Virus record (IMG/VR): IMGVR_UViG_3300026521_000195
Span: 1 to 25,147 of that record
DNA length: 25,147 nt
Direction: 5' to 3' (one strand)
Source of the DNA: a virus
The notes below the pieces were generated by a model. It was not told where the DNA came from and ran no database searches. It was given only the letters and a program-made list of their open reading frames with translations. Both the position numbers and the translations under genes were made by a program. Of the stretch, positions 15,349 through 24,510 are shown piece by piece (within the stretch, counting starts at the first letter, position 1; every line of letters begins with the position of its first letter).

Positions 15349-16280
15349 ACCCTCCCTGAAGATTTTTCAAGAATGTCAAGCCCAGCAATTCTAAACTTGG
15401 AGTCCACTCTATACTCAAAAGAGGCTTGTTTTACAATTTGACCGATTGTCAGCTTTTGTGGAATTCTCATCACCATAGCGTCTTCGCTTGTTGAGTATGC
15501 AACAACCTTAGAAGTTCCATCAACGTCTTTCGCTCTAAATGTAGTAACGAATTTAACAAAAGGGAAGTTATCTTTCAAAGCTTTTAGAACAGTTGCACTT
15601 CCAGCTTCTGATTTATAAATTGTCCCCTGAAGCTTATTCATCACATAAATTGGCATTACGACGGTATCAGCACTGTATTCAGGGGTGTTATTAACGTCAT
15701 TTAACTGCTCTGTAATAAGAGTTGCAATCTCTTCATACATATCTTCTCCACTCAAATTATCGATTGAGTCCGAAGCACTTGTAGTTGTAAAAAGTGAAGT
15801 ATTCAAAAGCCCTTCTTGCCCATTATGCCCTAAGTAGCCAATCTCATCAATTTTCTGAGAGTATGCTTTTTTGTGTGTCATAATGTAGCGTTGTGGTAGG
15901 TTGATGTTACCCATCTGTGCTTCTTTAATCTCATCATCTGTCCAGATTGAGTGAGCTTGTTTTGGGAACACGCTAATGAATGTGTCTTCTACACTAAGGG
16001 AAATTCTCCCTTTTCCACTTCCGATATCGGAACTGTCTGCAAAATCCCCATAGTCTTCAATTCTTAGGGATTGAATTTTTCTTGCATACCCCCCAGTATT
16101 GTCTGCTTTTACTCCACTGTTTAAAAATGAGAGTTCAGCATACTTTTTTTCAAGAATTTTTGGGTTAATAGCAGTTAAGTTTCTTGCCAACACTGCACCC
16201 ATCGCACTATCTTTAAACGCTTTTCCACTATCGGTAAAACGCTTAAAGCTTTCAATATTATAAATTTGTCCTAAAGTCAT
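15333..16280 (-). CDS. Major capsid protein (DUF2184)
   Basis: This 315-residue protein has the length and strand pattern of DUF2184 capsid proteins. It contains IYNIESFKRFTDSGKAFKDS near the N-terminus and the segment DDEIKEAQMGNINLPQRYIM (about 115-134). The later KIDEIGYLGHNGQEGLLNTS (143-162) is the typical 'k.De..l.G....gl.Gll' motif. It is preceded by cement protein and protease-scaffold genes and followed by DUF4054, the normal order. A GGGGGAT ribosome site stands before the ATG. An HK97-type fold is expected from the family. Confidence 0.88.
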   Translation of the reverse strand: MTLGQIYNIESFKRFTDSGKAFKDSAMGAVLARNLTAINPKILEKKYAELSFLNSGVKADNTGGYARKIQSLRIEDYGDFADSSDIGSGKGRISLSVEDTFISVFPKQAHSIWTDDEIKEAQMGNINLPQRYIMTHKKAYSQKIDEIGYLGHNGQEGLLNTSLFTTTSASDSIDNLSGEDMYEEIATLITEQLNDVNNTPEYSADTVVMPIYVMNKLQGTIYKSEAGSATVLKALKDNFPFVKFVTTFRAKDVDGTSKVVAYSTSEDAMVMRIPQKLTIGQIVKQASFEYRVDSKFRIAGLDILEKSSGRVLTGL

Positions 16281-22311: not shown

Positions 22312-22340
22312 ATTATATACTAATTATTGCAGTTTTTCAA
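22312..22340 (-). promoter_or_regulatory. Sigma70-like promoter P2 (TTGAAA-N17-TATAAT)
   Basis: The -35 element TTGAAA (22340-22335) and -10 element TATAAT (22317-22312) are separated by 17 bases on the minus strand. The predicted start is near 22305, 20 bases before the ATG at 22285. The -35 box overlaps the TGA of the 61-residue gene. The spacer is nearly identical to that of P1, which is not needed for polymerase and so suggests a shared regulator site. Confidence 0.82.
22312..22340. repeat. 29-base promoter-spacer direct repeat, copy 1 (copy 2 at 22549-22577)
   Basis: The two copies ATTATATACTAA-y-TATTGCAGTTT-k-TCAA agree at 27 of 29 bases, including the promoter spacer. They stand 237 bases apart and flank the 61-residue gene. 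This points to duplication of a promoter-operator unit, or to selection for the same regulator at two genes. Confidence 0.8.
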
Positions 22341-22548: not shown

Positions 22549-22577
22549 ATTATATACTAACTATTGCAGTTTGTCAA
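22549..22577 (-). promoter_or_regulatory. Perfect consensus sigma70-like promoter P1 (TTGACA-N17-TATAAT)
   Basis: On the minus strand TTGACA (22577-22572) and TATAAT (22554-22549) are separated by exactly 17 bases, a full match to the E. coli-type consensus. The predicted start near 22542 gives a short leader before ATG 22522. A promoter of this strength in a phage accessory region suggests early or repressor-controlled expression. The operator-like inverted repeat 22559-22582 covers its -35 box. Confidence 0.88.
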
Positions 22578-22979: not shown

Positions 22980-23600
22980 TTAAACCATATCTGCAAAAGT
23001 TAGCGATTTTATGAAATTTCTCCCATCATCGAATTTCAACGCTGGCAATTCATTGTATCGTGCTAAATGAAATTCTTTTTTAAATAAAGCCCATACTTTT
23101 CTGTGTAGTTTTGTAGCTAACAACTTGTCATCTTTTGCAATCTCATACACTTTTGTATTTTTAGCGTCCATTAATGCACGCTCTTGCCAATTTTCAAGTC
23201 GTTTTGTTTCCTCAAGCTTTTTCACCCTCTCTTCAACTACACTATGCCCTTTTGCAATAATAGAAATTTGCTCAGAAATTGAAAGTGGTCTAAGCGACTG
23301 CTTTTCAATCTTGATGAAATAATCTCTAATATCCTTACCAATTTTTGTTCTTTGTAGCATAGCTAAGTGCTTTGCAGTATCCAAAGTTAAAATATACTCA
23401 ATTCTTGTTGCGTTGTTCGCTTCCATTTTTTTGTGGAGACGAATATAGTCCTCATTTTCAGAAAATAGTGATAATTCCTTCTTAATCCACGTGCTAAAAT
23501 CGCTCTTCAGATTAAGATTTTTATGAAGCTCTCTAGCGTTTACGCTATTAACCTCATCTTTTCCTATAACTTCTTTATTGATACTTATGATGCTATCCAT
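22980..23600 (-). CDS. Phage antirepressor, AntA/AntB N-terminal and ORF6C C-terminal domains
   Basis: This is a 206-residue protein. Residues about 18-84 are the AntA domain: VNARELHKNLNLKSDFSTWI, then EDYIRLH and the hallmark YILTLDTAKHLAML (69-82). Residues about 110-203 are the ORF6C domain: a helical part followed by LATKLHRKVWALFKKEFHLA, YNELPAL and GRNFIKSL. Such proteins antagonise a phage repressor or regulate lysogeny and induction. AAGGGATTAT before the ATG supports the start, and the gene overlaps the 188-residue gene by eight bases. Its presence suggests a temperate or formerly temperate phage, though no repressor or integrase is in the window. Confidence 0.9.
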   Translation of the reverse strand: MDSIISINKEVIGKDEVNSVNARELHKNLNLKSDFSTWIKKELSLFSENEDYIRLHKKMEANNATRIEYILTLDTAKHLAMLQRTKIGKDIRDYFIKIEKQSLRPLSISEQISIIAKGHSVVEERVKKLEETKRLENWQERALMDAKNTKVYEIAKDDKLLATKLHRKVWALFKKEFHLARYNELPALKFDDGRNFIKSLTFADMV

Positions 23601-24159
23601 ATAATCCCTTTTGTTTTCCGAAAATAGTGAACCCTACAAATCCAGTCGAACATAAATTTCTATACTCTTCTATGTTTTCTACTAATTCTTTTGAGTTTTT
23701 TATTTTATTTAGTGTTCCATATAGATACTTTGTTGTAAACTTTGCCCACTTATATCCTCCATCAATCGATAAAAATATTGACCAATTATCGTTGTACATT
23801 TCCACCTTATTGTTCTTGATTATTTTAAATAAATCATCTTCTGTATACTTCAATCGACTAAAAGGTCTACAATACTCTTCTATTTTTTTAGGTAGTGTCA
23901 CTACGAGTATATTTTCAAAATTTTCAAAATTCCAACCTGTATCTACCCTTTCTATTGCTATCGACCCACCAATAGCAAATATTGACTTTTTAGATATACA
24001 TATAGTGCTATAAGAGTGATTTATAAATATTTCAACCGTATCATCATCCTTATGTCTTGCAAATAGGCTATTGTCTCCGTGGTGAATATAGTCTTTTAAT
24101 GATACGTCGCTAGTGCTATCATATTGATTTATTTTGTTTATTGCTTCTATGAAATCCAT
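23593..24159 (-). CDS. Hypothetical protein upstream of the antirepressor
   Basis: 188 residues from ATG 24159, with AGAAAG upstream. A longer frame from TTG 24207 is possible, but that TTG forms part of a promoter -35 box and has no ribosome site. The protein is acidic at the N-terminus (YDSTSDVSLKDYIHHGDN), then strand-rich (DTVEIFINHSYSTICISKKS), then helical, with a C-terminal glycine/aromatic tail (CSTGFVGFTIFGKQKGLYG). No family is recognised. It is coupled to the antirepressor by an eight-base overlap, so the two may work together, for example as a regulator or partner. It stands just after the structured non-coding stretch. Confidence 0.55.
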   Translation of the reverse strand: MDFIEAINKINQYDSTSDVSLKDYIHHGDNSLFARHKDDDTVEIFINHSYSTICISKKSIFAIGGSIAIERVDTGWNFENFENILVVTLPKKIEEYCRPFSRLKYTEDDLFKIIKNNKVEMYNDNWSIFLSIDGGYKWAKFTTKYLYGTLNKIKNSKELVENIEEYRNLCSTGFVGFTIFGKQKGLYG

Positions 24160-24177: not shown

Positions 24178-24207
24178 ATTATTTAAGGAGAGTATGTGAA
24201 GTGTCAA
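24178..24207 (-). promoter_or_regulatory. Putative promoter of the 188-residue gene/antirepressor unit
   Basis: On the minus strand TTGACA (24207-24202) is followed after 18 bases by AATAAT (24183-24178), five of six in the -10 box. The start would be close to 24171, about 12 bases before ATG 24159. The alternative TTAAAT at 15 bases is less likely. The -35 consensus is perfect, but the spacing is one base over the optimum. Confidence 0.5.
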
Positions 24208-24221
24208 GCTTTACTACTCTT

Positions 24222-24314
24222 TAAGCCCTTATCAAGCAAGAGAGGGTAGCAGGTGCTTGACTTACCTTTGCTCTCTCTTGATAAAAGCTTAGCGTTAAGA
24301 GTTATTAACGCTAA
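24222..24314 (-). ncRNA. Structured non-coding stretch: long hairpin plus adjacent ten-pair stem
   Basis: On the minus strand UAAGCUUUUAUCAAG (24291-24277) pairs with CUUGAUAAGGGCUUA (24236-24222): 15 pairs, of which two are U-G. Inside, AGAGAG (24276-24271) pairs with CUCUCU (24244-24239), and GGUA pairs with UACC nearer the tip. Directly before it, TTAGCGTTAA-gagtta-type stem arms (24314-24305 and 24298-24289) form a perfect ten-pair stem. The two U-G pairs are A-C mismatches on the plus strand, so the folded RNA should come from the minus strand, like all genes here. It may be read through from the tRNA promoter. It has no T-run and no similarity I recognise. Function unknown. Confidence 0.5.
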
Positions 24315-24351
24315 TATCCTATTTGTGAAAAGTGTGCATCATTATATTTTA

Positions 24352-24375
24352 CTAAGCTAAGATTGATTTTTTCAT
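24352..24375 (-). CDS. Seven-residue mini-ORF (possible leader peptide)
   Basis: Between the tRNA and the structured stretch, AAAGGAAATAAA stands before ATG 24375, which opens MKKSILA and stops at TAG. The ribosome site is as good as those of the real genes. It could be a leader peptide whose translation changes folding of the hairpins just downstream, a peptide, or chance in AT-rich DNA. The remaining bases from 24315 to 24351 hold no other open frame of note. Confidence 0.25.
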   Translation of the reverse strand: MKKSILA

Positions 24376-24481: not shown

Positions 24482-24510
24482 ATTTTATCATTTTTTAACT
24501 ACAATGTCAA
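24482..24510 (-). promoter_or_regulatory. tRNA promoter (TTGACA-N17-TAAAAT)
   Basis: On the minus strand TTGACA (24510-24505) and TAAAAT (24487-24482) are separated by exactly 17 bases. Eleven bases separate the -10 box from the first tRNA base, so the transcript would start about four bases upstream of the tRNA. The -35 box lies in the last codons of the HNH-like gene. It shows that the tRNA is expressed independently of the genes upstream. Confidence 0.78.

Follow-up and report, generated by a model that had tools for sequence, protein, structure and literature searches.

What is the structured, non-coding stretch that lies between a tRNA gene and an antirepressor operon in this phage, and from which strand would it act? 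The window (the whole stretch of DNA analysed, 25,147 bases) is the record of an uncultivated tailed phage. On its minus strand an HNH-like gene is followed by the tRNA gene, the non-coding stretch, a 188-residue gene (ORF188), the gene for an AntA/ORF6C antirepressor and a nuclease-like gene, beyond which lie the small and large terminase, portal and tail genes. The large terminase has 50% likeness to that of an Erwinia phage. The structured element of the stretch is termed E1 here and its coordinates are collected with those of its neighbours in Table 1.

Table 1. Features of the antirepressor operon and its leader (positions in the window)
Feature	Positions	Strand	Remarks
Promoter match TTGACA-17-TAAAAT	24482..24510	-	upstream of the tRNA; consensus match only
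tRNA, CAT anticodon	24396..24470	-	retained with the hairpin in both relatives
Mini-ORF MKKSILA*	24352..24375	-	same sequence in 3 of 3 phages
Ten-pair stem followed by GCUUUU	24289..24314 (24314-24305 with 24298-24289)	-	weakly terminator-like
E1	24222..24291	-	15-pair arm, six-pair inner stem, 26-nt loop; arm as in E2
Antisense segments in the E1 loop	24246..24261	-	GUCAAGC (24255-24261), UGCUAC (24246-24251)
Complementary target in the leader	24203..24217	-	GUAGUA (24212-24217), GCUUGAC (24203-24209)
Promoter-like TTGACA-18-AATAAT	24178..24207	-	consensus match only; -35 within the antisense target
ORF188	23593..24159	-	first gene past the target; 3' end shares 8 nt with the antirepressor gene
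AntA/ORF6C-type antirepressor	22980..23600	-	PF08346 (8.9e-22), PF10552 (7.9e-10)

A sequence-only reading of this DNA had described the tRNA, a promoter match ahead of it and the mini-ORF MKKSILA*, and all three were found as described. The promoter match agrees with the consensus at 11 of 12 positions, carries a TG before its -10 and is the likely start of a transcript. The tRNA is most like Campylobacter phage tRNA-Met genes (79%), a weak hint of the host. The mini-ORF is possibly a translated leader peptide; its peptide is unchanged in all three phages examined, and the region of its ribosome site is altered in one of them (G001, below). The same reading had placed a promoter before ORF188. 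A consensus match is indeed present there, but it does not rise above background, with 16 promoter-like matches in the 3.1-kb region against 13 +/- 4 expected. Elsewhere, a promoter repeat with a conserved spacer, TTGACAAACTGCAATAGTTAGTATATAATGCGAC, precedes several early genes (window 22549-22577 and 22312-22340, both minus strand; plus strand at about 15621-15660 of locus L126), and the spacer common to these repeats suggests an operator or activator site.

Two related IMG/VR records carry the whole block, G002 (3300037333_000060) at 99% and G001 (3300026521_000232) at 98%. The flanks of the block are mosaic: G001 is without ORF188, so that the antirepressor gene directly follows the element, and in G002 the HNH gene is replaced by a different gene. 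The tRNA and hairpin thus remain together in both relatives while genes on either side have been swapped or lost. For ORF188 there is no family match, and outside the window it was found in one relative only. The gene looks like cargo that was gained or lost recently. In G001 the early region occurs twice in the 41-kb contig (L125 1-8254 and L126/L127, at about 31.9-41.3 kb), the two versions being about 95% alike; either the unit is circularly permuted and about 32.6 kb long, or assembly has joined two population variants.

The three stems proposed from sequence (the 15-pair arm, the inner six-pair stem and the ten-pair stem) are all present. In the minus-strand RNA the arm of E1 is formed by UAAGCUUUUAUCAAG (24291-24277) with CUUGAUAAGGGCUUA (24236-24222) and includes two U-G pairs; the inner stem joins AGAGAG (24276-24271) to CUCUCU (24244-24239) with a 2-nt bulge, and closes an apical loop of 26 nt (24270-24245). 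The ten-pair stem and the long arm have three bases in common (24289-24291) and cannot both be complete. The minus-strand fold has an energy of -35.9 kcal/mol (z -2.8), matched by 1 of 200 dinucleotide shuffles, and the plus-strand fold one of -40.5 kcal/mol (z -3.5), matched by no dinucleotide shuffle. The E1 region has the lowest energy among 1252 windows of 120 nt covering both strands of the 25-kb record, and by z one E1 window ranks fourth among them. The structure of E1 exceeds chance, and energy alone leaves its strand undecided; the earlier preference for the minus strand on grounds of better folding therefore falls, the plus strand folding slightly better, while the preference itself is upheld by a second element described below.

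Neither stem has the form of an intrinsic terminator, a G+C-rich stem with a U tract immediately after it. The long arm is followed by AAGAGUAG, and the ten-pair stem has three G-C pairs and only UUUU after GC.

Two segments of the E1 loop are complementary to the leader RNA 5-19 nt past the hairpin: GUCAAGC (24261-24255) pairs with GCUUGAC (24209-24203) and UGCUAC (24251-24246) with GUAGUA (24217-24212), the pairing being collinear. The duplex between loop and downstream sequence reaches -23.3 kcal/mol, compared with -11.7 +/- 2.8 for shuffled sequences, none of which equalled it in 1000 trials; the G001 version was reached by 1 of 1000 shuffles. The only change that G001 has inside the hairpin, G24250 to A, turns a loop-target G-U pair into A-U. 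P1 c4 and P4 CI likewise show downstream complementarity in the same test. Duplexes with sequence upstream of the hairpin were no better than shuffles at the 5% level (0.06-0.39). Cofolding of the closed hairpin with the target gave no net gain, in a program that cannot score loop pairing with the arm kept. The -35 of the promoter-like match lies inside the target and offers an alternative reason for that sequence. Leader ORFs starting within the targets were considered and set aside, as neither their ribosome sites nor their reading frame is conserved between variants.

The relatives hold a second element, E2, of the same design. It lies in G001 between the replication initiator gene and a divergent 151-aa gene, and was found in two variants in G001 and one in G002; the window does not reach this far. 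The E2 RNA has the same strand as the replication-initiator operon that it precedes and so takes the position of a leader. The two elements have in common the arm AGCUUUU(U)AUC…GAU(A)AAGGGCUU, U·G pairs included (E1, AGCUUUUAUCAAG…CUUGAUAAGGGCU; E2, AGCUUUUUAUCCAGCACC…GGUGUUGGAUAAAGGGCU), while their upper stems differ in sequence but are paired in both, and their loops also differ. Across the E1/E2 arm all 65 of 65 cells are paired, with one C-G/A-U double change and one G-C/G-U change, compared with 32-64% paired in a control with slid partners; the covariation score was matched by 42 of 500 shuffles in an alignment of three close phage records only. A lack of compensatory changes in related phages had been named in advance as grounds for giving up a structured RNA, and the changes found, few as they are, are all compatible with pairing, which speaks weakly for the structure. 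E2 also repeats the complementarity in another sequence: its segment AGCACCACUGGACGC pairs with GCGUUUGGUGGUGCU, about 10-24 nt past the hairpin, over 15 contiguous pairs, and a scripted test on a trimmed loop returned 14 contiguous pairs (p <= 0.001). Because U-G pairs are kept in the arm of both elements, and occur again in the loop-target helix of E2, the minus-strand RNA is favoured.

These same U-G pairs bear on whether the symmetry merely resembles RNA structure and belongs to a DNA site, such as a replication origin, a protein-binding inverted repeat or a recombination site. Inverted repeats between phage genes are often DNA sites, E2 adjoins a replication initiator gene and the plus strand of E1 folds at least equally well, but the conserved U-G pairs would be mismatches in a duplex symmetry and each element is on the strand of the operon that it precedes. 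Moreover, the arm words occur elsewhere only scattered in coding DNA, and it is hard to see what complementarity between loop and target would mean for a protein-binding repeat. We consider a DNA site improbable. Still less probable is a passive structure that stabilizes, processes or terminates the 3' end of the tRNA transcript, with the downstream complementarity arising by chance: E1 does directly follow the tRNA and the ten-pair stem, with its GCUUUU, has a terminator-like score, but E2 has the same arm with no tRNA before it, and in E1 and E2 alike fewer than 1 in 500 shuffles reach the complementarity. Of the natures put forward from sequence, a small RNA or attenuator is supported and a tRNA-processing element or DNA origin is not. 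What is left is a regulatory leader or antisense RNA, since the loop is complementary to downstream sequence and, in the relatives, an element of the same design precedes the replication operon.

Within that choice the serious main rival, rather unlikely in our estimate, is a switch acting only in cis, in which the hairpin and the loop-target helix would be alternative or pseudoknotted folds of one mRNA with no small RNA acting in trans. Such a switch would set access to the first ribosome site or to Rho or RNase, perhaps through translation of the mini-ORF that lies upstream of E1. It stays serious because the calculated energies make E2 of G001 bistable (-37.2 kcal/mol for the arm fold, -37.5 kcal/mol for the loop-target fold), whereas E1 strongly prefers its arm, that fold having a probability of 0.96 and the alternative being 3.5-5 kcal/mol worse. 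IsrK also shows that loci of this type act in cis too (PMC4825925). Apart from the dominance of the E1 arm, no intrinsic terminator follows the alternative folds, and the close fit to the layout of c4 and CI favours a trans component.

That fit is clearest for the C4 RNA of P1 and P7, which represses ant mRNA by pairing near its ribosome site (PMC12197685) and is cut out of a longer transcript by RNase P (PMC5320573). In the annotated order of P1, c4 is followed by a2 at +4, b2 at +33, icd at +51 and ant1, which overlaps icd by 4 nt, so that the a2 and b2 targets span +4 to +40. In the window, E1 is followed by its target at +5 to +19 and by ORF188 at 62 nt past the hairpin, with an overlap of 8 nt into the antirepressor gene. 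C4 and the predicted E1 RNA both lie in the leader of an antirepressor operon and have a long closing stem, with loop segments complementary to two short downstream sites ahead of a first ORF that overlaps the antirepressor start. C4 is described as a three-stem RNA (PMC5320573), with a core of P1, P2 and P3 and the loops a' and b'; E1 and E2, by comparison, have one long arm and a large loop, with weak inner pairing in the predicted fold, so that E1 presents a single large apical loop where C4 has two inner stem-loops. Loop segments complementary to downstream a2/b2-like sites before the first ORF are present, as two segments in E1 and one long helix in E2, which are analogous to those of C4 and not homologous in sequence, and E1 lies in the same operon as, and ahead of, an antirepressor gene (AntA/ORF6C protein). 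Upstream a1/b1 targets were not detected, nor was any match to RF03163, and there is no counterpart of the GGW motif at the base of P1, where RNase P cuts the 5' end of C4: the base of the arm is CUAAGC in E1 and AAGAGC in E2, neither with GG. E1 is also preceded by a tRNA and mini-ORF, and the relatives have the second element before a replication operon, unlike P1 and P7.

Rfam agrees with these differences. The C4 model (RF01695) gave no match to E1 up to E = 10 and none to E2, and the isrK model (RF01394) matched neither. The P4 CI RNA scores 74.9 bits for C4 with that library, which also recognizes the P4 leader as isrK and c4-a1b1, so that the missing matches in E1 and E2 are informative. 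To judge by its layout E1 would work like C4, yet by these features it does not qualify for the Rfam C4 family.

Three other phage RNAs provide comparisons. The sar RNA of P22 is an antisense transcript of the ant region and pairs with ant mRNA. It is a small RNA that controls an antirepressor (PMC12197685 for the role of sar), as E1 would be, but E1 reads in the same direction as its target. The P4 CI RNA acts on the flanking complementary sites seqA and seqC (PMC4825925); it too is an operon-leader hairpin complementary to downstream sequence and, like E2, precedes replication functions, but P4 has an upstream target (seqA/isrK-like) that was not found here and its CI RNA matches RF01695, which E1 and E2 do not. 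IsrK of the Salmonella prophage Gifsy-1 has alternative folds and controls an antirepressor via a coupled small ORF, and loci of its type act both in cis and in trans (PMC4825925). The isrK-orf45-anrP locus resembles E1 in having a leader RNA complementary to downstream sequence, alternative folds, a coupled small ORF and an antirepressor, but IsrK activates in trans and does not repress, and it differs in structure and sequence.

How widely such elements occur was addressed by several searches. An Rfam search at curated and permissive thresholds matched the tRNA alone and gave no family for the hairpin, in line with the sequence-only reading, and no report of an element with the E1/E2 arm was found in the open-access literature. 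The exact loop pattern, run against 2.9 million viral contigs, returned one relative only. Among matches to a degenerate arm pattern, one in locus L134 was judged a chance match in coding sequence and the others were known copies of E2. A looser arm pattern gave 83 stretches, many of them one repeated G+C-rich sequence, and the same continuous arm was present in none of the 25 best-folding stretches inspected of these 83. A covariance model (R1) run over 35 sources and 397 genomes from the class to which an epsilonproteobacterial MAG belongs returned weak matches only; the best among the loci (L004, 23.1 bits) falls within an ORF, and the genome matches, judged by their sequences, do not have the arm-loop-target layout. 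Beyond the three related records, no further copy of E1 or E2 was found in the viral contigs or the 397 genomes. Other candidates were rejected on inspection: a tRNA at locus L009 proposed as a positional homologue has unrelated surroundings, the core sites expected of an integron attC are absent, and the words TTATCAAG and CTTGATAA, considered as operators, are scattered in coding DNA.

In a blind scan the rule, a long hairpin with a loop complementary to sequence downstream, was applied to both strands of 1.87 Mb of phage DNA with P4 placed in it as a positive control. When the resulting 229 long open-loop hairpins were ordered by how well the loop pairs with downstream sequence, the first nine rows held the P4 CI RNA, E1 and E2 in several copies, one unrelated hairpin from locus L013 and one from L046. 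The L013 hairpin (573-623), whose loop is complementary to its flank over 14 bases, had the best score of the scan (z -9); it has an HNH gene on one side and a 170-aa gene on the other, both on the opposite strand.

With modest confidence, we read E1 as a C4/CI-like antisense leader RNA that would control the antirepressor operon. This is the best reading because the gene order parallels c4-icd-ant of P1 and the action of c4, CI and IsrK is known. We infer that a transcript from the tRNA promoter would extend past the tRNA and mini-ORF and take in the hairpin, whose long arm would present the 26-nt loop for pairing with the leader. The pairing would occur in trans, through a hairpin released from the transcript by processing or termination, or possibly in cis, and would keep ORF188 and the antirepressor gene that overlaps it from being expressed, through hindered ribosome entry or early termination, so that the antirepressor would stay off until the balance shifts. 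E2, with the same arm and another loop and target, may have the same role for the replication-initiator operon in the relatives. A role of E1 in lysogeny is a guess, and lysogeny itself is unproven because a scan of early genes recognized no integrase or CI-like repressor.

Immunity through RNAs such as c4 and CI has mainly been described in P1, P7, P4 and related gammaproteobacterial elements, with some in other Proteobacteria. Reports of C4 itself come from several proteobacterial orders and phages (PMC2864571, PMC5320573). It is possible, though on balance doubtful, that E1 and E2 represent a separate phage RNA family, with an invariant arm and exchangeable antisense loops placed before both the antirepressor and replication operons, in which RNA and not a protein repressor would set a developmental decision. 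A C4-like layout without the C4 signature, present twice in one phage with a common arm and two different loops, suggests that the layout arose repeatedly or has diverged past the reach of sequence models, and that searching by rule, for a long hairpin with a loop complementary just downstream, can find more such elements. For an uncultivated phage, the locus offers a testable link between a non-coding element and control of an antirepressor.
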